From Dongshaea marina (GTDB lineage Bacteria > Pseudomonadota > Gammaproteobacteria > Enterobacterales > Aeromonadaceae), in NCBI RefSeq assembly GCF_003072645.1, contig NZ_CP028897.1, positions 1,625,658 to 1,689,657 on the forward strand: DNA of 64,000 nt. Reading direction: 5' to 3'. Made by a program: the position numbers and the translations under genes. Of the stretch, positions 16,540-51,156 are shown piece after piece. Each line of letters begins with the position of its first letter. Within the stretch, counting starts at the first letter, position 1. Under the pieces are notes generated by a model, which saw only the letters and a program-made list of their open reading frames with translations, searched no databases and was not told the origin of the DNA.

Positions 16540-16562
16540 AGGGCCTTTTCAGGCCCTTTTTT
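16540..16562 (+). terminator. Terminator of the PTS-asparaginase operon
   Basis: A perfect 7-bp stem (16540-16546 with 16551-16557) with TTTC loop is followed by T6. It overlaps the 3' end of the opposing gene (stop at 16549) and may serve both strands. Confidence 0.85.
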
Positions 16563-17373
16563 GTTGCACAAAGCCAAAGGGGGTTTGATGTTGGAGGCCT
16601 TTACGAAGGAGTCGCTGATTGAGAATGTCCTCGTAGTGGAGCAGTATTGCTGCGAGTCCAAGGCGATGGTCATAGCATTCACCCTGAAGCAGCTGCTGCA
16701 AGGTCAGAGCAAAGTGGCAGGCTGTGGCATTAAGGCAGCTTTGAGTTGATTCTTGCGTCAGCGGGACTTCAAGCCTACGGGCGATATCCAGAGCGACCGG
16801 ATGTTGGCAACATGAGATGGAGGTCACTTGAAATGGTAAGCTATGGTGGATAAATTCGATTAATTTTTGCCGAGCATCTTGTCGCTCCTGCTCTAGCAAG
16901 GCGAAGGCGATATAGCTACTTTTCTTTTCTACGATGACCAGCAATTGGCCCTGGCTTTTATGGAGCTTCTCAGGGAGATCAAAGCAATCAAGTTGAATGC
17001 TTCCCAACCCATCGTCACTGATCGGTTTTCTGAGTCGGCCGACCTGATGACGTTGTAGGCAGCGACTTATCCCTGCCCGGGATGCGTTTCGATTAATAAG
17101 AAGCCGAGTAACCTCAAGAAGCTCATCTAAAGGGAGTTTCAGTCGTTGCCGCAGATAAATAACCAGAATCTCCTGCTCTGAGGAGAGCGTCTTATGGATG
17201 GTGTTCGGTCGATGCGAGCGATCCTGGCAGTCATTGCGCTGACGCCAGCGGCGTATGGTGTCGATTGAGAGATTCAGTTCTTTGGCCAGCTGTGTGTCAG
17301 ACAGCTCCGAGCGTTGAATATACCTTCGGATCCTGGGGGTAGTGGTGGCATTCGAGTGAAGTTTTATTTCCAT
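16549..17373 (-). CDS. IS481-transposase-like protein lacking catalytic triad (putative regulator)
   Basis: The intact 274-residue frame follows the IS481 transposase plan. There is an HTH near 15-48 (SDTQLAKELNLSIDTIRRW), then D-R-S-H-R-P, the segment L-R-Q-R-L-K-L-P-L-D-E-L-L-E-V, a second HTH near 88-112, an RNase-H-like core beginning I-Q-L-D (Asp129), and a C-terminal segment L-N-Q-R-L-L-R-K-G-L-Q-H-Q-T-P resembling the usual end. The second Asp and the Glu of the DDE triad are not visible at the expected places. No inverted repeats flank the gene. I infer a domesticated DNA-binding protein, possibly controlling the convergent PTS operon. Confidence 0.65.
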   Translation of the reverse strand: MEIKLHSNATTTPRIRRYIQRSELSDTQLAKELNLSIDTIRRWRQRNDCQDRSHRPNTIHKTLSSEQEILVIYLRQRLKLPLDELLEVTRLLINRNASRAGISRCLQRHQVGRLRKPISDDGLGSIQLDCFDLPEKLHKSQGQLLVIVEKKSSYIAFALLEQERQDARQKLIEFIHHSLPFQVTSISCCQHPVALDIARRLEVPLTQESTQSCLNATACHFALTLQQLLQGECYDHRLGLAAILLHYEDILNQRLLRKGLQHQTPFGFVQQKRA

Positions 17374-17518: not shown

Positions 17519-18529
17519 TCAATTCGATTGAGGTGTTTTGCTATTCGTCTCCTCGGCGGCCAGCTCTTTGAGCAAAGAGAAATCAAACATCGAATCAGGG
17601 GTTACACCGGATTGAACGCCAAACATGGCGATGGTGGCGCGGCGGCGCAGGGATTTTGGTGGGATTGAATTAAAGAAATTCAATACCTCTTTGGCGACGC
17701 TTTTTATCCGGGGGATCTGGGTGGTGGCCTCAGTGACGCTGCGGAAGATATAAGCATCCTCAAGCCAGTGGGCGTAGGTCTTTTCGGGGATCTTATCGTA
17801 TTTTGCAATATTGCGTGGCACTCGTGGATCCTGCATCCCTTTGTACCAGGCTCTGAGGAGCGCCTTAAAGGCCGGGCGGTTCTCGGCGAGTGCAGACTTT
17901 TGCACCACGATCACATCATAAATATTTTCGGGAAAGTCCTTGCTGGTCGCAACCAACTGACCCACTTCAGGGGTGACCATATCTAAGTTTGGGTTCCAGC
18001 CTACGGCGGCGGCCAGTGATGGAAGATGGACAAACAGCTCGCCAACATTTTCACCGACGGCATATTTGAGATAGATATCATCAAGGCTTTTGCCATGCTG
18101 TTTCAGATAGAGATGGGCCAGCCACAGAGAAATGGAGTTGGATTGTAAGACCCAGCTTTTGCCGAACAGATCATCCGGCATCTTGAGTCCCTGGCGTGCC
18201 ATGATCTTATCGCCGCCATTGCTGTAGTCGGTGATCCCTATGATGACACCATTATGTTGATTGCTCTGGGTGTAGATAAAATCATACAGGGTGAGGAAGG
18301 CGACATCGGCGACTCCATCCTTAAAGCGTTCGACATTGGTGTTGTAGGTTTTGAAATAATAGTTGAACTCGGGAGGGAGCATACTCATCCGGTGCATGGC
18401 ACGGCTCGCCATCCATACCGGCCAGTCTGAGGCAAACATTCTGAATTCGGTGGCCGCAGGACCCCGGGTCAGATCCGGTGCCAGGCTGAGCAGGCAGGTA
18501 AGGAGTAGCTGGCAGAGTCTCTTTTGCAT
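17519..18529 (-). CDS. NitT/TauT-type periplasmic binding protein, orphan
   Basis: The 336-residue protein starts with a hydrophobic signal sequence and continues with a PBP2 fold of the SsuA/ThiY/NMT1 type (DVAFLTLYDFIY near 75-87, then W-V-L-Q-S-N-S-I-S near 125). No ABC permease or ATPase is nearby. A second, degraded copy of its 5' end lies at 20509-20680, part of a direct repeat. The ligand is unknown. Confidence 0.8.
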   Translation of the reverse strand: MQKRLCQLLLTCLLSLAPDLTRGPAATEFRMFASDWPVWMASRAMHRMSMLPPEFNYYFKTYNTNVERFKDGVADVAFLTLYDFIYTQSNQHNGVIIGITDYSNGGDKIMARQGLKMPDDLFGKSWVLQSNSISLWLAHLYLKQHGKSLDDIYLKYAVGENVGELFVHLPSLAAAVGWNPNLDMVTPEVGQLVATSKDFPENIYDVIVVQKSALAENRPAFKALLRAWYKGMQDPRVPRNIAKYDKIPEKTYAHWLEDAYIFRSVTEATTQIPRIKSVAKEVLNFFNSIPPKSLRRRATIAMFGVQSGVTPDSMFDFSLLKELAAEETNSKTPQSN

Positions 18530-18782
18530 CAGATAACCATCCTTTTTTATAAAGGGTGGTTAAAGAAAAGGGAGTCTGCAAATGAAATTGCTCATGCCAC
18601 AGGAGTGACAGCAGCGCTGCGACTCCCTGCTGCCAGAGGTGTGATCCTGAGTGCTCTACCAGTCATCGTCCTCATCATCGGTTGGGTGCATCTTACTTTT
18701 ATATTCGGGAATGTTTTTATCCATCCCTTTCATCCGCAGATAGGCGCTTCGGGCGATCCCGATAACAAAAAGGATCACCACA
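18364..18782. repeat. Left copy of a ~400-bp direct repeat
   Basis: This segment runs from inside the 5' part of the binding-protein gene through the spacer to the 3' part of a ypfN copy. It corresponds to 20509-20911. The outer parts are clearly similar (the ypfN part is almost identical) and the spacer is more diverged. The two copies flank the AT-rich insert 18783-20508. Confidence 0.8.
18657..18782 (-). pseudogene. 5'-truncated second copy of ypfN
   Basis: On the minus strand this piece encodes VVILFVIGIARSAYLRMKG through the acidic tail ending D-D-W and a stop, nearly identical to the intact gene at 20788-20940. The first nine or so residues are missing where homology stops at 18782. 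It is a by-product of the direct duplication. Confidence 0.8.
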
Positions 18783-18904
18783 GTATCATAAGCTATATTT
18801 GAATAGATTAAATATATTATTTTTTATATAACTTGATAGGGGGAGTTAATTATATATCTGGATTGAAATCTTAAGTTATTGAATAGATTCAATCTCTTCG
18901 GGCT

Positions 18905-19480
18905 TGATTCCCCGCCGCTTGCGGCGTGAAGCTCTAAAATAGAGCAAGTTGGTGGTCAGAGTGGAGCTTGATGTATTGGTTGTCCTGATTTTTGACATAG
19001 TTGTCAATCATCGCTTCGTCACCGTGTTTACTGACAGTGTTTGCGAAATACCCATCAGTCCAGAACTCGCTACCCCATAGTTTTTTTTACTTGTGGGCAG
19101 CGCCTGAAAAATTCCTTGGCAGTCAGGCTTTTAAGCATTTGCACGATTTTAGTGATGCTGTAGGTAGGAACGGACTGGATGAGAAAATGGACATGATCTT
19201 TATCAGATCCTATTTCTAGAAACTTGATCTGATAGCGCTCAGCGATTTCTAGGCATACATTCTTGAGAACCGAGTCAACATTGTCATCGATTATTTCTCG
19301 ACGGTATTTTGCAGGAAAAACCATGTGGTAAAGTAGCACTGTAACGTTGTGAATTTTGTGGATGAACTCACTCATAAGTAGAGAGTACATGGTTTGTTAT
19401 GTTGAATTCTACTGCAAGTGCTAGCTCAAGTCCCTCGATTCGCGAAGCGAAGTCGAGCCTAGGCGAGAGGCTTGACCCGG
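18905..19480 (-). mobile_element. IS200/IS605-family insertion sequence (IS200-like)
   Basis: A Y1 transposase gene is bounded by terminal hairpins as in IS200. A perfect 6-bp GC hairpin lies at about 18912-18925 beyond the 3' end. A nested hairpin at about 19427-19475 lies before the 5' end. No accessory tnpB is present. Exact ends cannot be fixed by eye. Confidence 0.7.
18934..19390 (-). pseudogene. tnpA: IS200-like Y1 transposase, frame break in A8
   Basis: The first frame ends at ...CPQVKKTMG. The next frame continues LWGSEFWTDGYFANTVSKHG down to TAG at 18934, the normal IS200 C-terminus. The switch falls in a run of eight A on the coding strand (19081-19088). The HUH motif is visible as D-H-V-H-F-L, and the catalytic Tyr lies in the C-terminal part (I-D-N-Y-V). 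The cause may be slippage, programmed frameshifting, mutation or miscalling of the run. The likely start is MSEFIHK or the ATG five codons earlier. Confidence 0.8.
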
Positions 19481-19745
19481 GGATTTTTATTTATATGCAT
19501 TTGCCCAAGACTTCAACATAATCTGTAATGTTCCTATATTATTCTCAAAGTCTTCCTGTGAATTTAAGGTGTTTAAGGGATATTAAGGTGCGCTTGTAGA
19601 TATTTTGTTTAAAATCATTGTTCTCTTTTTTTGCTTGATCCTTTTTAGATGGATGTATCGGGTGATGCGTATCGCGTGATGTAATCAAGATGATGTGATC
19701 AAGAATTACTAAATGGCTTTTTAAATTGATAATGGTTTAAATAAG
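19481..19745. other. AT-rich spacer, no gene seen
   Basis: This spacer inside the AT-rich insert lies between the IS200-like element and the kinase-like gene. Two GTGATGT/GTGATGCG-like repeats near 19660-19700 may be regulatory. Nothing else is recognisable. Confidence 0.5.
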
Positions 19746-20432
19746 ATGCTTAAATTTATAAAAATAAAAATTGATGGAAAACCCAGAGTGTGCATTGTTA
19801 AAAGCGATATATACCTTCCGAGATACATTGAGATTAAGGAGAGTGAATTAATTAAGACTGGTAGTAGTAAGTTTTACATATATGATGGAAAGTTTCTTTT
19901 TAAAGTGCGAGAAAATAAATATAAAATAAAAAGAAATCCTATTGGTTGGTTTTTTAGAACTTTGATTAGAGACCGAATTTTAATCCAGACTGACTCTAGA
20001 AAAGAGTATAAAGGAAATAAGAGAATAGAAAGAGTAGGGATAAAAACGGTTCGTAACTATGGATGGGGTGTTTTTATAAACCCATTTGATAGATATCTAT
20101 CACTTTGTTTTATGAGCTATCATCCGGAGATGGTTGAGCTTCAAGAGTTTTTGAATGATAAAAACAAATCAAAGGAGAATAAAAATCATGTTATCGAAAA
20201 TTTGCTTGATGAAATTAATTATTTGGCAGGTAGAGGATACTATTTGAAAGATTTTCATTTCGGTAACTTTTTATATGGAGATAATGACTTGCTATGGATA
20301 GATACTCATATAAAACCGCTATCAAAATTTAAAAATAAGAAAGGGGATCAATTTACTTCAAGTATTGATAAGAGGAAAGTCGGAGATCAATACTGGGATA
20401 TGGTTAAATCCGTAATTCAGCCGATATCGTAA
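19746..20432 (+). CDS. Lipopolysaccharide-kinase-like protein (WaaY/KdkA-type fold)
   Basis: The 228-residue protein is very rich in Lys and AT-rich codons, unlike its neighbours. It has a kinase-like catalytic loop Y-L-K-D-F-H-F-G-N-F (Asp169, Asn174) and a metal-binding Asp186 in L-L-W-I-D-T-H. These match the arrangement in bacterial LPS-core heptose and Kdo kinases. It is a solitary gene without other LPS genes, between an IS200-like element and a direct repeat, which indicates horizontal transfer. The substrate is not known. Confidence 0.6.
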   Translation: MLKFIKIKIDGKPRVCIVKSDIYLPRYIEIKESELIKTGSSKFYIYDGKFLFKVRENKYKIKRNPIGWFFRTLIRDRILIQTDSRKEYKGNKRIERVGIKTVRNYGWGVFINPFDRYLSLCFMSYHPEMVELQEFLNDKNKSKENKNHVIENLLDEINYLAGRGYYLKDFHFGNFLYGDNDLLWIDTHIKPLSKFKNKKGDQFTSSIDKRKVGDQYWDMVKSVIQPIS

Positions 20433-20508
20433 TAAAAATTATTAATGTCAGATATTCACTTTAAATTGTAGGCTCTTCTTCAGGGTGGTTATAGGTCTAT
20501 AAGTAACT

Positions 20509-20680
20509 GTTGAACTCAGGAGGGGGCACCTTTATCCGGTTCATGGTGCGGTTCGTCATCCAGACCGGCCAGTCTGAAGCAAAAATCATGAATTCGCTCG
20601 CAACTGGATTGCGCGGGATATCCAGCATCAGTCCATGCAGACCAGCAACCACATTCGGAGTTGTTTTTGCATCGCAATAC
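20509..20680 (-). pseudogene. 5' fragment of the NitT/TauT-type binding protein
   Basis: The minus strand here resembles the first about 60 codons of the gene at 17519-18529 (the WPVW...RTMNRI portion is recognisable) but is truncated at 20509 and has small indels. It is not functional. Confidence 0.75.
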
Positions 20681-20911
20681 CTCCCTCTTTTGTATAGAGG
20701 GTTGGCTAAACTCGCGCGGTTAACAAATGAAGGGGTGGCAGCAGCAGAGGTCTGCTGCCCACAGAGCAGTTGTGACTGTCTGCCGGGCTACCAGTCATCG
20801 TCCTCATCATCGGTTGGGCGCATCTTACTTTTATATTCGGGAATGTTTTTATCCATCCCTTTCATCCGCAGATAGGCGCTTCGGGCGATCCCGATAACAA
20901 AAAGGATCACC
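20509..20911. repeat. Right copy of the ~400-bp direct repeat
   Basis: It corresponds to 18364-18782. It begins with GTTGAACTC, matching the middle of the binding-protein gene's 5' region, and ends within ypfN, whose intact copy continues beyond it. It bounds the AT-rich insert on the right. Confidence 0.8.
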
Positions 20912-20940
20912 ACAATGATCAGTATCCACCACCATCCCAT
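20788..20940 (-). CDS. ypfN: YpfN-like small membrane protein (UPF0370)
   Basis: The start MGWWWILIIVV at 20940 gives a 50-residue protein with one N-terminal membrane helix and an acidic tail ending D-D-E-D-D-D-W. This is the layout of UPF0370/YpfN. It follows the M15 peptidase and dapE on the same strand, as ypfN follows dapE in E. coli, which supports the name. Its function is unknown. A truncated copy lies at 18657-18782. Confidence 0.8.
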   Translation of the reverse strand: MGWWWILIIVVILFVIGIARSAYLRMKGMDKNIPEYKSKMRPTDDEDDDW

Positions 20941-20944
20941 AGAA

Positions 20945-22742
<1,798 letters not shown>

Positions 22743-23111
22743 CTAGCTCCCGGCATGCTCTAAAAGCTCAGCGGCATAATCGCTGGCCTTAAACCCAACC
22801 AGTATCTGCTCTCCCCTGGTGAGAACCGGACGCTTGATGAGAGTCGGGTGCTGCTGCATCAGCGCAACGGCCTGCTGCTGGGTCTCGAGCTGCTTTTCAC
22901 TCTCGGTCAGATTGCGCCAGGTGGTACTGCGGGTATTGAGGAGCTTTTTCCAGCCCAGGGTTTCACACCAGAGTGTGAGCTGCTGCTCGTCGATACCATC
23001 GGTTCTGAAATCGTGAAATTGAGCTTGGATTTCCTGTTCGGCCAGCCATTTGCGAGCCTTGCGCACAGTGTCACAGCTTTTGATCCCGTAGAGGGTCACG
23101 GATTGGGTCAT
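22743..23111 (-). CDS. ArsC/Spx-like protein YffB
   Basis: From MTQSVTLYGIKSCDTVRKA (start 23111) the protein has 122 residues and is a thioredoxin-fold ArsC/Spx family member with a single active-site Cys in K-S-C-D-T. The KRPVL element near residue 92 matches the glutathione/arsenate-reductase-like family. It immediately precedes dapE, as yffB does in E. coli. It is a probable glutathione-dependent thiol reductase; arsenate reduction is not implied. Confidence 0.85.
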   Translation of the reverse strand: MTQSVTLYGIKSCDTVRKARKWLAEQEIQAQFHDFRTDGIDEQQLTLWCETLGWKKLLNTRSTTWRNLTESEKQLETQQQAVALMQQHPTLIKRPVLTRGEQILVGFKASDYAAELLEHAGS

Positions 23112-23246
23112 GGTGAGGTTGCCCTGAATGAGAAAAGTTCCCAATTGTGGCATGGGGTTTCGGGCCTGTAAACCGTCAGTGAGGTATCTGTGTGCCTGGA
23201 TCTCACTCTATACTTTGGATGTGATGCATGACGCAAGGATGACGTG

Positions 23247-24968: not shown

Positions 24969-26668
24969 ATGAATCATAATGCTCAAGATCAACAGCAGCC
25001 CCTGTATATTCCTTACGCAGGTCCAAATCTTCTCGAAATGCCGTTACTGAATAAGGGCAGTGCTTTTAGCCAGGAGGAGCGGATTTTTTTCAATCTTGAG
25101 GGGTTGTTGCCACATAACATTGAAACCCTGGATGAGCAGGTTGAAAGAGCTTATCAGCAGTACCTCAATGCAGCCGATGACATGGGGCGGCATATCTTCC
25201 TGCGTAACCTTCAGGATACCAGTGAAATACTATTTTATAAGCTGGTCCAGACTCACCTTAAAGAGATGATGCCGATCATCTATACCCCGACCGTTGGTAA
25301 GGCGTGCCAGGAGTTTTCTAATATTTACCGTCGCCACCGGGGACTCTTCATCTCATACCCCGAGCGTGAGCGAATCGATGACATTCTGCACAATGCAACC
25401 CACGGCGATGTGAAGGTGATCGTGGTGACCGATGGTGAACGGATCCTCGGCCTGGGCGATCAGGGGATTGGCGGCATGGGGATCCCTATCGGTAAGCTCT
25501 CTTTGTATACCGCCTGTGGCGGAGTGAACCCGGATCAGACCCTGCCGATCGTCCTTGATTGCGGCACCAACAATGAGGCGCGTCTGAAAGATCCCATGTA
25601 TATGGGGTGGCGGCATAACCGGATCACAGGTCAGGAATATGATGAGTTTGTGGATCTGTTTATTGAGGCGGTGAAACGGCGCTGGCCCGATGTGCTATTG
25701 CAGTTTGAGGATTTTGCGCAGCAGCATGCCCAGCCTCTGTTGGACAGATACCAGGACGAGCTTTGCTGCTTTAATGATGATATTCAGGGACAGCCTCGGT
25801 CACCCTGGGGTGTCTGATTGCCGCTTGTCGCGCCAGTAAGCGTCCGATGAAAGATATGAAGGTGGTGTTCCTCGGGGGAGGCTCGGCAGGATGCGGCATC
25901 GCAGAGCAGATCATTGCGCAGATGCGCTCTGAGGGGCTTAGCGATGAAGAGGCCCGGGCCCAGGTGTTCATGGTGGATCGCTATGGACTGCTGATCGACA
26001 GCATGCCGAATCTGACTCCGACTCAAAGTAAGCTGATGCAGAGTAAAGATCTGATTGAGCAGTGGAACTGCCCTCAGGACAATATCTCGCTGCAGGCGGT
26101 GATCGAAAATGTGAAGCCGGATATCCTGCTGGGAGTCTCCGGGCAACCGGGGCTTTTCAGTGAGGAGGTGATCAAGACCATGTATGCTCACTGCAAGACC
26201 CCGATCATCTTCCCGCTGTCGAACCCAACCTCCAGGGTCGAGGCACTGCCGGAAGATATTTTGCGCTGGACCGAAGGCAATGCCCTGGTTGCAACCGGGA
26301 GCCCCTTCGATCCGGTGCAGTATGAGGGGAAGAGCTATGCGATCGCCCAGTGTAATAATTCCTATATTTTCCCGGGAGTCGGCCTTGGGGTGTTGGCGAC
26401 CGGTGCCAAGCGGGTGACCCGGGAGATGTTCATGGCGGCCAGCCGTGCCCTGGCGGACTGCTCGCCCTTGGCTAAAGATGGCGAAGGGGCACTATTGCCA
26501 CCTCTTGAAGAGATCCAGGAGGTGGGCCGCTGTATCGCCAAGCTGGTGGCGAAGACGGCCCAGCTGCAGGGCCATGCGGTCCAGTGGCCGGATAAGGTTC
26601 TGGATGAGGCGATCGACAATAGCTTCTGGCAGCCTGAGTACCGGCCGTATCGCAGAACCTATTTCTAA
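24969..26668 (+). pseudogene. maeA: NAD-dependent malic enzyme, one base short
   Basis: The first frame covers residues 1-275 of a long-type malic enzyme (catalytic Tyr in IIYTPTVG; metal ligands Glu-Asp in [10 protein letters not shown] and D in CFNDDIQG). The second frame continues from residue about 280 with the NAD site [11 protein letters not shown]. One additional G at 25787-25789 joins them as [23 protein letters not shown], giving 566 residues against 565 in E. coli MaeA. The enzyme decarboxylates malate to pyruvate. The break lies within a conserved motif and is probably an assembly error. Confidence 0.9.
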
Positions 26669-48023: not shown

Positions 48024-48497
48024 TCAGGGGTGTTGCTTGAGGTAGTCCAGGACCACGTCGGCATGTTCTTTGGTCTTGAACTTATTAAAGACGTGGGCTA
48101 TCTGTCCTTTTTCATCGATGAGAAAGCTGATGCGGTGGATCCCATCAAACTCCCTGCCCATAAATTTCTTGAGTCCCCAGACACCGAATTTTTCGGCGAG
48201 CTGATGATCCTCATCGGCCAACAGGGTGAAATTGAGTTGCTGCTTATCTTCAAAGCGCTTGAGACGAGCAGGAGCATCCGGACTGACCCCGACCACCCGG
48301 GTGTTCAACGCCTCAAGCTCGCTGTTGATATCCCGCAAGCCACAGGCCTGGGTGGTACAACCTGGAGTCATCGCCTTGGGATAAAAATAGAGCAGCAGCT
48401 TTTTACCATGAAAGTCGCTGAGGGAGACTGTTTTGCCTTCCTGGTCTTGCAGGGAGAAGTCAGGGGCCGGAGCACCTGCCTGGAGAGTTTCAATCAT
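48024..48497 (-). CDS. bcp: Thiol peroxidase Bcp (PrxQ type)
   Basis: The 157-residue peroxiredoxin has T-P-G-C-T-T-Q-A-C with peroxidatic Cys47 and resolving Cys52, the PrxQ arrangement. It reduces hydroperoxides in the cytosol. It lies between gcvR and msrA on the minus strand, and bcp-gcvR opposite dapA is the order known from E. coli. Confidence 0.95.
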
Positions 48498-48532
48498 CAG
48501 GGATCCTTATTTATCTGTCTTTATATCTATCT

Positions 48533-49075
48533 TTATTGATCGGCCAGGGTGTGAACCTGGAACTGATGGTTTAGAGTACCCAGAGTGTTACACAAATCCA
48601 AATACTGTTGATGAGCCGCCTCTATATCACTGCCTTTGGGCAGGCTAAGCTGAAAACGCGCATGCAGGATCTCTGTTTTGGAGGGCTCTTCCACATAGAT
48701 TTCGGATTGCAGGCTATGAAGTTCTGCCTGGATATCGGTAAAAAACTGGGTGAAGTGCTTGAGTATTCCCGGTGTATCCTGAATCTCAATATTGGCATCC
48801 ACGCTGTAGCTGTAGCTGCGAAGCTCCTGCTCAGAGGTGCGCTTCATCACGCTGACCAGATCCAGCTCCTGGCTTTTCAGCGGAAGAGTGGCTTCAACCT
48901 GAGCCATTGAATTCCAGTTTCCGGAGAGCAGCATCATCAGGGTAAACTCCTGGCCAAAGATGGCAAGACGACTGTCGATGATATTGCATCCACATTCGGC
49001 AACATGGGAGGCGATCTGATGGACAATACTGGAACGGTTTTTGCCGATGGCACTCACGACAAGATAGTGACTCAT
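48533..49075 (-). CDS. gcvR: Glycine cleavage system repressor GcvR
   Basis: The 180-residue protein consists of two ACT domains (about 1-80 with V-V-S-A-I-G-K-N-R-S-S-I-V and 90-175 with I-E-I-Q-D-T-P-G-I-L). GcvR controls the glycine cleavage genes by binding GcvA rather than DNA. It is divergent from dapA and upstream of bcp, as in E. coli, which supports the name. Confidence 0.92.
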   Translation of the reverse strand: MSHYLVVSAIGKNRSSIVHQIASHVAECGCNIIDSRLAIFGQEFTLMMLLSGNWNSMAQVEATLPLKSQELDLVSVMKRTSEQELRSYSYSVDANIEIQDTPGILKHFTQFFTDIQAELHSLQSEIYVEEPSKTEILHARFQLSLPKGSDIEAAHQQYLDLCNTLGTLNHQFQVHTLADQ

Positions 49076-49202
49076 AGCTTAACTATTCTGTTATTTTGTG
49101 TGGCACGATAGTAACACAAAAGCCCGTTCGTTCCCGAACGCCTCTTGTATTTATTGAGAGTCAACCGTACCATGGACGGCCAATAATTGGGAGAGCTCAT
49201 AC

Positions 49203-50090
49203 ATGTTGCAAGGTAGCATCGTTGCCCTTATTACCCCCATGACTGGTGACGGTCAGATTGACTACACCAGCTTGCAAAATTTAGTCGATTATCATGTTCG
49301 CAGTGGAACCCAGGCGATTGTCGCCGTGGGGACGACCGGAGAGTCGTCAACGCTGGATACCGAAGAACATATCTCAGTGGTTCGCCATGTGGTGAAATAC
49401 GCTGCAGGCCGGATACCGGTGATCGCTGGCACCGGATCGAATGATACCGCTTATGCCATTGAATTAACCCAGGCCCTCGCCAACAGCGGTGTGGTTGCCG
49501 GTTTATCGGTCACCCCCTACTACAATAAACCCTCTCAGGAGGGGCTGTATCAGCATTTTAAAACCGTTGCCGAAAGTAGCGAGCTCCCTCTCATCCTTTA
49601 TAATGTGCCGGGCCGGACCGGCTGTGACCTTCTCCCACAAACCGTGGCACGGCTGGCCGAGATCCCCAATATTATCGGGATCAAAGAGGCGACCGGTAGC
49701 CTGGAACGTCTTCAGGAGATTAAGGCCTGTTGCCCGAGTGATTTTCTGCTGTATAGCGGAGATGATGGGAGTAGCTGTGAATTTATGCTCCAGGGTGGGC
49801 ACGGTACTATCTCGGTGACGGCTAATGTTGCGGCATCACAGCTCAATACCATGTGTCAGTGTGCACTGGCGGGAGACAGAGAGCAGGCGTTGGCTGCGGA
49901 TCAGCCTCTGCGCGCTCTGCACCAGGCTCTGTTTATCGACTCGAACCCGGTTCCTATCAAGTGGGCGTGTCATGCGGTAGGCCTGGTTGCGAATGGTCAA
50001 TTAAGGTTGCCTCTGGTTTCTCTGGCACAGGACAAGGTCCCTGAGCTGGAGCGGGCGTTAGAGTCGGCAGGAGTGAAAGTAGGTGAATAA
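49203..50090 (+). CDS. dapA: 4-hydroxy-tetrahydrodipicolinate synthase
   Basis: The 295-residue TIM-barrel protein has the Schiff-base Lys161 (G-I-K-E-A-T-G), the Tyr133 of I-L-Y-N-V-P-G-R-T-G, and T-T-G-E-S near 44-48. It condenses pyruvate with aspartate semialdehyde, the first step to diaminopimelate. It overlaps bamC by 8 bp. With dapE at 21613 the window carries two steps of the pathway. Confidence 0.96.
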   Translation: MLQGSIVALITPMTGDGQIDYTSLQNLVDYHVRSGTQAIVAVGTTGESSTLDTEEHISVVRHVVKYAAGRIPVIAGTGSNDTAYAIELTQALANSGVVAGLSVTPYYNKPSQEGLYQHFKTVAESSELPLILYNVPGRTGCDLLPQTVARLAEIPNIIGIKEATGSLERLQEIKACCPSDFLLYSGDDGSSCEFMLQGGHGTISVTANVAASQLNTMCQCALAGDREQALAADQPLRALHQALFIDSNPVPIKWACHAVGLVANGQLRLPLVSLAQDKVPELERALESAGVKVGE

Positions 50091-51156
50091 TAAAAAACAG
50101 TGTTTGCAACTGGCGGCTGCCGGAGTGCTTGCGATCATCGGGGTGAGCGGCTGTAGCTCCAGCCATGATCTGTCGCAGGCGACAGGCTCGACGGAGTATC
50201 TCAATGCCAAGCTGGATACCCAACCCTTTGTGGTACCAACTGGCCTGCAGGCTCCGCAGTTTAATACCCGCTACTATATTCCCGCGGCTGCTGCAGGCAC
50301 ATCAAAAGAGCCAGTCGGTAAGAGTGTCAATATTGAACCGCCGGTCCAGCTGCTACCTGTCGTTAGTGGAAGCCGGGTGGGTCAATCACAAAGTGGAGCC
50401 CTGGTCTGGTACAGCAGCACTCAAAGCATCTCTGAGCTAAGTGATACCCTGTGGTCGCTGATGCAGCAAACTCTGAAGGTAACCGACAGCAGCTCTGGGA
50501 AACAGGACTATTCACTGGCAACCCCCTGGATTAAATCCTATACCGTACAGCACAACCAGGTTCGCTCAAAGTTTAAGGTGGCTCTCAAGAGTCAGCCGGA
50601 TCTGCACCGGGTTGGCGTTGAGCTCACCACAGTGGCGGCCGAAGTTTTCCAAAAAGGGTCCTGGCAGGGGATCTCTGTCAATGATTATGCTGCCCTGCAG
50701 CAGCGTAACACTTTGATGAATCAGCTTGCGTTTAACTATCAGAATCGATTGAACCAGCAGCTTCTTAAGGCGGCCAGTGGCAGCATTAAGGTGCAGGCGG
50801 GCAAAGATAGCAGTGAGCTCAACGCCTGGATCGCCGATGCTCCTTATGAGGTGGTGTGGAACCGTCTTGAGCACCTGCTGCCGGCCCTTGGTTTTACCGT
50901 AACCCAGGCTCAGCAATCTCTGGGCGAGTTCAAGCTCGAATACAAGGGCAGTTCCTTGTTTAGTAGTGACAAGGGTAAGCCGCTATCGGCTCTTGATTCA
51001 GGTAAGTACCGCTTGCTGCTCGGCGATCTCGGGCAGAAGACCTCGATGACCCTGTTTAGTAAGGAGTCGACGCCGCTCAAGGCTGAGACCTTCGATAAGC
51101 TGACCCCGACCGTGGTTAGCGCATTTGCAAAGCAAAATAGCATTAAGCATCAGTAA
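50083..51156 (+). CDS. bamC: Outer-membrane assembly lipoprotein BamC (NlpB)
   Basis: The 357-residue precursor has a lipoprotein signal with lipobox V-S-G-C (Cys24), then an unstructured stretch and two helix-grip domains typical of BamC. It belongs to the BAM complex that inserts beta-barrel proteins. The dapA-bamC-purC order is the classical one in gammaproteobacteria. Confidence 0.93.
   Translation: MNNKKQCLQLAAAGVLAIIGVSGCSSSHDLSQATGSTEYLNAKLDTQPFVVPTGLQAPQFNTRYYIPAAAAGTSKEPVGKSVNIEPPVQLLPVVSGSRVGQSQSGALVWYSSTQSISELSDTLWSLMQQTLKVTDSSSGKQDYSLATPWIKSYTVQHNQVRSKFKVALKSQPDLHRVGVELTTVAAEVFQKGSWQGISVNDYAALQQRNTLMNQLAFNYQNRLNQQLLKAASGSIKVQAGKDSSELNAWIADAPYEVVWNRLEHLLPALGFTVTQAQQSLGEFKLEYKGSSLFSSDKGKPLSALDSGKYRLLLGDLGQKTSMTLFSKESTPLKAETFDKLTPTVVSAFAKQNSIKHQ

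Follow-up and report, generated by a model that had tools for sequence, protein, structure and literature searches.

How did about 1.7 kb of AT-rich DNA come to lie between two copies of the ends of the same two genes in the genome of Dongshaea marina, and how long ago? The locus lies in a window of 64,000 nucleotides (the whole stretch of DNA that was analyzed, in whose numbering it is described here) and, read leftward along the minus strand, has the gene order arsC-dapE-vanY-ypfN, spacer A, SBP_A, AT-rich DNA, ypfN fragment, spacer B and SBP_B. Its features are:

17519-18529, minus strand: SBP_B, an open reading frame for a complete periplasmic binding protein of 336 aa, placed in the SsuA/urea-type SBP superfamily by sub-threshold matches
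18530-18654, minus strand: spacer B, with a hairpin directly upstream of the SBP_B start codon
18655-18782, minus strand: ypfN 3' fragment, the left repeat copy, with 42 full codons including the stop and no start
18783-18890, no strand: left part of the AT-rich cargo, without similarity to what lies past the right-hand ypfN
18891-19491, minus strand: IS200-type element, with its left end near 18891-18927, its right end near 19426-19491 and tnpA at 19070-19390
19746-20432, plus strand: gene for a kinase-like protein of 228 aa, with relatives that pass PF06293
20481-20672, minus strand: SBP_A, the 5' end of a homologous gene for a binding protein, truncated and apparently decayed, with a 4-base deletion and an internal TAG
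20673-20787, minus strand: spacer A; a hairpin like that of spacer B precedes the SBP_A start codon
20788-20940, minus strand: complete ypfN-like small gene (50 aa), of which 20788-20914 is the right repeat copy
20945-21616, minus strand: VanY-type D-Ala-D-Ala carboxypeptidase (PF02557, 1.4e-33), a neighbor of ypfN in relatives too

A preliminary description of this DNA had placed direct repeats here, and a repeat search of the whole window indeed returned, as its two longest direct-repeat families, the two blocks beside ypfN. The ypfN 3' block (18656-18782 against 20788-20914) covers the last 127 bases of the gene, is identical at 126 of them, and is recovered in a search of the organism's own genome with E = 7.9e-59. 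Its sole mismatch sets CGC in the right copy against CAC in the left (R to H), leaving 41 of 42 codons identical and not one of the 42 with a silent difference. The SBP 5' block (18341-18486 against 20488-20633) is identical at 106 of 146 ungapped bases (73%), its 40 mismatches falling 10, 10 and 20 at the first, second and third codon positions. The intergenic spacers (125 against 113 bases compared) show a weak likeness, with a score matched by 3 of 2000 dinucleotide-preserving shuffles, and a hairpin next to the SBP start codon is present in both diverged copies (18518-18570 and 20662-20715, minus strand; z -2.3 and -3.5). Similarity is absent further out: the score is reached by 948 of 1000 shuffles past 18340/20487, and by 649 of 1000 past 18782/20914. 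What had been taken for a single repeat of ~400 bp is a mosaic of two blocks with a weakly similar spacer between them, and the jump to 99% identity falls at the ypfN stop codon. The complementary truncation of the gene pairs had been read correctly: the left side holds the intact binding protein and a ypfN without its first 8-9 codons, and the right side a whole ypfN and a 5' fragment of the binding-protein gene. The name ypfN itself is provisional and follows from size, place and look, since all family profiles fall below cut-off (none of the Pfam or NCBIfam profiles reaches it for the 50-aa product).

Dating the repeats by divergence along their length, as had been proposed, yields two ages, with 1 difference in 127 bases in ypfN and 40 in 146 in the SBP block. 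Were ypfN diverging at the SBP rate, at most one difference would be expected with a probability of about 1e-16; a rate four times slower would still give 0.0013. The near-identity of the ypfN copies and their lack of silent change, beside so divergent a neighbor, argue for their recent common descent, and the comparison points to a recent separation of the ypfN copies and a separation long ago of the binding-protein copies. On these alignments the junction looks recent, and the binding-protein allele of the donor looks to have diverged beforehand. The earlier suggestion of a donor from another strain or an old event treated the repeat as one block. Recombination between direct repeats of 127 bp tends to delete the DNA between them, so the insert has to be either recent or maintained. 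A point against the crossover favored below is that the split transposase of the cargo appears older than the ypfN junction, though its frameshifts could be sequencing errors.

Of the two binding-protein genes, SBP_B is presumably the native copy. Its NCBIfam matches (TIGR03427, 1.3e-13; TIGR01728, 1.9e-10) are both far below the cut-offs and its Pfam matches are sub-threshold too; the fragment at 20481-20672 is its only other match in its own genome. A search of 394 genomes of the order (own included) gave matches in 77, the best outside the own genome being 36 and 33% identical; these two relatives, in two genomes, adjoin genes read as CheR/CheB-like. As judged from its reading frame, SBP_A is a pseudogene, a dead 5' fragment: the 4-base deletion lies in the signal-peptide region, the TAG is in frame, and the DNA similarity ends near 20487, with a protein search extending it to residue 85 across two stops. 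The open reading frame that adjoins SBP_B at 16549-17373 (minus strand) has a sub-threshold match to IS481-type transposases (1.2e-17).

The cargo is of foreign composition. From left to right, the GC content of the insert is 21% (18783-18895), 44% (IS200 element), 31%, 30% (kinase gene) and 23%; outside the IS it is thus 21-31%, against 49% for the whole window. Insert DNA has matches elsewhere in the own genome only at the IS ends. The IS200-like cargo of the preliminary description is borne out by a Y1 transposase (PF01797, 5e-25; NF033573, 5.7e-26, 91.2 bits against a cut-off of 55), which assigns the element to IS200/IS605, with the refinement that the C-terminal part of tnpA sits in another frame. 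Of the subterminal hairpins expected at both ends of such an element, folding as single strands gives a signal better than most shuffles at the right end (z -2.5, 4 of 200 shuffles as good) and a slight one at the left (z -1.4, 20 of 200). The end sequences recur at five other places in the own genome, over 66-136 bases:

C1:180080-180215, C2:33777-33904, C1:2788326-2788393, C2:62083-62148 and C1:2384178-2384272: stretches resembling the IS200 ends

In the two of these stretches that were read, the ends are too close for a transposase between them; these stretches are possibly non-autonomous IS200-type elements. The own genome also encodes two distant Y1 transposases, 28 and 26% identical to that of the insert.

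The other cargo gene had been called kinase-like. The window protein itself reaches the cut-off neither of PF06293 nor of any other Pfam or NCBIfam family, but its relatives bear the reading out: five were found, and the three that were aligned and scanned (all except L059 and L061) are 30, 26 and 23% identical to it and all pass the PF06293 cut-off, one of them scoring higher to RIO1. D169, H171, N174 and D186 are conserved in the window kinase and the aligned relatives, and two of the three relatives adjoin genes read as glycosyltransferases. A profile built from the four kinases matched the heptose kinase RfaP weakly (E 0.0054), at rank six behind CIPK23, MELK and RNase L chains. Taken together, the protein is probably a kinase of the Kdo/WaaP type, and its open frame, if expressed, could modify the lipopolysaccharide core. 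Pattern matches to the kinase and the SBP in genome and viral collections confirmed no close relative of either, the defense and phage families gave no match for either, no further copy of either was found in the own genome, and the plasmids gave no lead for the kinase. Three further open reading frames that lie within the insert or span its edges are without a match in Pfam, and no replication gene was recognized between the copies. No integrase was recognized when all five such frames of at least 60 aa were scanned with Pfam and two of them with NCBIfam as well. Promoter-like sites number 9 against a shuffle mean of 8.3, and terminator-like sites 1 against 2.8. As a unit, the insert probably has no function.

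Frame changes in this region have to be read with some caution. The dapE gene (21606-22739) is read in two frames when compared to the DapE of all three relatives used (3/3), the change lying near 21760-21777, with six consecutive C on the plus strand near 21777. In a biosynthetic gene that is conserved apart from this, a homopolymer error of the assembly is the suggested cause. Given such suspected errors, the frame changes of tnpA, and perhaps the deletion in SBP_A, are weak evidence of decay; the truncation of SBP_A and its TAG hold independently of them. A malic-enzyme-like gene (named by reading) at 24969-26668 also appears split into two open reading frames in different frames.

The neighborhood of ypfN was compared by a DNA query covering ypfN and vanY against 40 other genomes (E <= 0.001), 29 of which gave matches. 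One stretch was taken from each of 18 of these 29; all are from other genera, 16 from the same family and 2 from other families. The gene for VanY is present in 18/18, the stretches having been selected by matches in vanY, and a YpfN-like open reading frame follows it, by eye, in 16, both exceptions being out of the family. None of the 18 has a binding-protein gene adjoining ypfN. As a tblastn query, the window YpfN matched 6 of the 18 stretches at 31-38% identity, and the ypfN part of the DNA query was untouched by any match in the 40 genomes at the same threshold. Conservation is therefore unlikely as the cause of the identity of the two ypfN blocks. By eye, the YpfN proteins of the relatives resemble one another more than they do that of the window, and they do not calibrate the pace of ypfN within the genus. 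In 11 of the 18 stretches bamC, with dapA and/or bcp (names by reading), is convergent to ypfN within a few kb, and in a twelfth (L064) the bamC match is weak and more distant. Here bcp-dapA-bamC (48039-51156) lies ~29 kb from the ypfN region (20788-23153), on the other side of dapE, so in this lineage the junction of ypfN with bamC has been broken.

These observations are best united by an additive integration of donor DNA through one homologous crossover inside ypfN, to which we assign a probability of roughly 0.6. The donor, most likely a small circle, would have carried the last 127 bases of a ypfN that hardly differed from the host gene, followed by a spacer and the 5' end of a binding-protein allele, both of them divergent and the allele in decay, and then the AT-rich cargo with the kinase-like gene and the IS200 element, the latter perhaps a later arrival. 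Such a circle could have formed, for example, from linear DNA that was trimmed into ypfN and then re-closed. The crossover would have kept the host spacer and binding protein at the left and placed the donor spacer and SBP fragment beside a rebuilt whole ypfN, thereby doubling the 3' part of that gene. We infer the crossover itself, and the close relationship of the donor at ypfN, from the following: direct repeats of a homologous segment flank foreign DNA, the intact and truncated gene pairs are complementary across the insert, and all junctions are explained by one crossover in ypfN with a donor carrying the ypfN 3' end. Counting against this reading, a near-identical ypfN beside a 73%-identical SBP requires either a mosaic donor locus or repair of the ypfN tract; in place of a near-identical donor ypfN, the tract may have been made identical during or after the exchange. 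No donor circle, donor genome or relative free of the insert was found in the genome, viral, plasmid and phage collections searched, of which the genome collection has one genome per species and one in this genus. The insert as a query matched six plasmid records, the best places covering 18-21% of it, within the IS200 part, and none 80%; among the phages it had no match. The preliminary description had proposed a single crossover of a circular DNA, and it was probably right in kind. The arrangement fits and has a precedent in E. coli (PMC3240628), but integration of a linear donor by one end looks the same.

In that alternative, a homology-facilitated illegitimate recombination, a linear donor would be anchored in ypfN and its other end joined illegitimately within the host ypfN. 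Such a mechanism has been proposed for displaced gene arrays at the T6SS loci of Vibrio cholerae, where, as reported, old genes stay behind the insert (PMC5361080). It predicts the same junctions and end product as the circle, the donor shape alone differing; likewise, the cargo past 18782/18783 is not homologous to the flank right of the ypfN repeat, and a pre-formed circle predicts this too. The E. coli work provides some leverage. With linear DNA having one homologous end, 56 of 60 clones had a partial duplication of the homologous locus by PCR, which in the 14 sequenced clones measured 109-950 bp, and its authors infer trimming, recircularization and a single crossover (PMC3240628). The illegitimate route is predicted there to delete rather than duplicate, and the clones that resembled one-ended illegitimate events were 4 of 60, against the 56 with partial duplications (PMC3240628). 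We accordingly regard linear one-ended integration as less likely than the circle, and on the whole as unlikely.

An old tandem duplication in the host of the ypfN 3' end, spacer and SBP, in which the upstream SBP underwent decay and received the insert while the ypfN fragment was gene-converted, would account for the homologous look of the spacers and leader hairpins of both copies. It would also suit the lean of the SBP differences to third codon positions, from which part of the SBP divergence may have arisen in working genes. Yet a start-less ypfN fragment should have diverged at least as fast as the SBP, against the 1/127 and 40/146 observed, and the conversion must end at the ypfN stop codon; we consider such a history rather improbable. 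Site-specific integrative elements typically leave the target gene whole and the foreign DNA between repeats of its 3' end, as at ypfN. Integration of a small element with the 127-bp repeat as its attachment site is nevertheless very hard to credit, as no integrase was recognized and the homologous spacer and SBP following both copies are left unexplained.

Other candidates were rejected. Two independent paralogous loci do not agree with a left ypfN without a start and a similarity that stops abruptly, IS200-mediated insertion does not agree with an element lying ~108 bp inside the left junction, and, as to a transposon, no terminal inverted repeats were found within 60 bases of either insert end (best 8/15).

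The proposed crossover in ypfN would make the insert a new instance of a known process, ordinary gene acquisition, most likely with the donor DNA coming from a relative. Its consequences beyond the ypfN locus are little; its value lies in being a clear natural example of apparent additive acquisition via one crossover, in which the age mosaic dates both parts separately. A further idea, which we regard as a long shot, is that this lineage repeatedly acquires DNA downstream of ypfN: recombination anchored in the small gene would swap or stack divergent alleles, while the ypfN in front of them is nearly identical. If true, the stacked genes would be a record of one acquisition after another, as has been proposed for T6SS loci.

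Compared with known systems, the insert is like the single-crossover (Campbell-type) integrations of E. coli as reported, with one homologous segment, a partial duplication of 109-950 bp and foreign DNA between its copies; unlike those clones, it is a natural event, and the donor flank (SBP_A and spacer A) has diverged from the host flank to which it is related (PMC3240628). It differs from the T6SS arrays described in V. cholerae in that the incoming SBP is dead and the old one intact, and no effector or immunity gene is recognized here, and resembles them in that a conserved stretch serves as the anchor of the incoming DNA and the old downstream gene is left behind the new one (PMC5361080).
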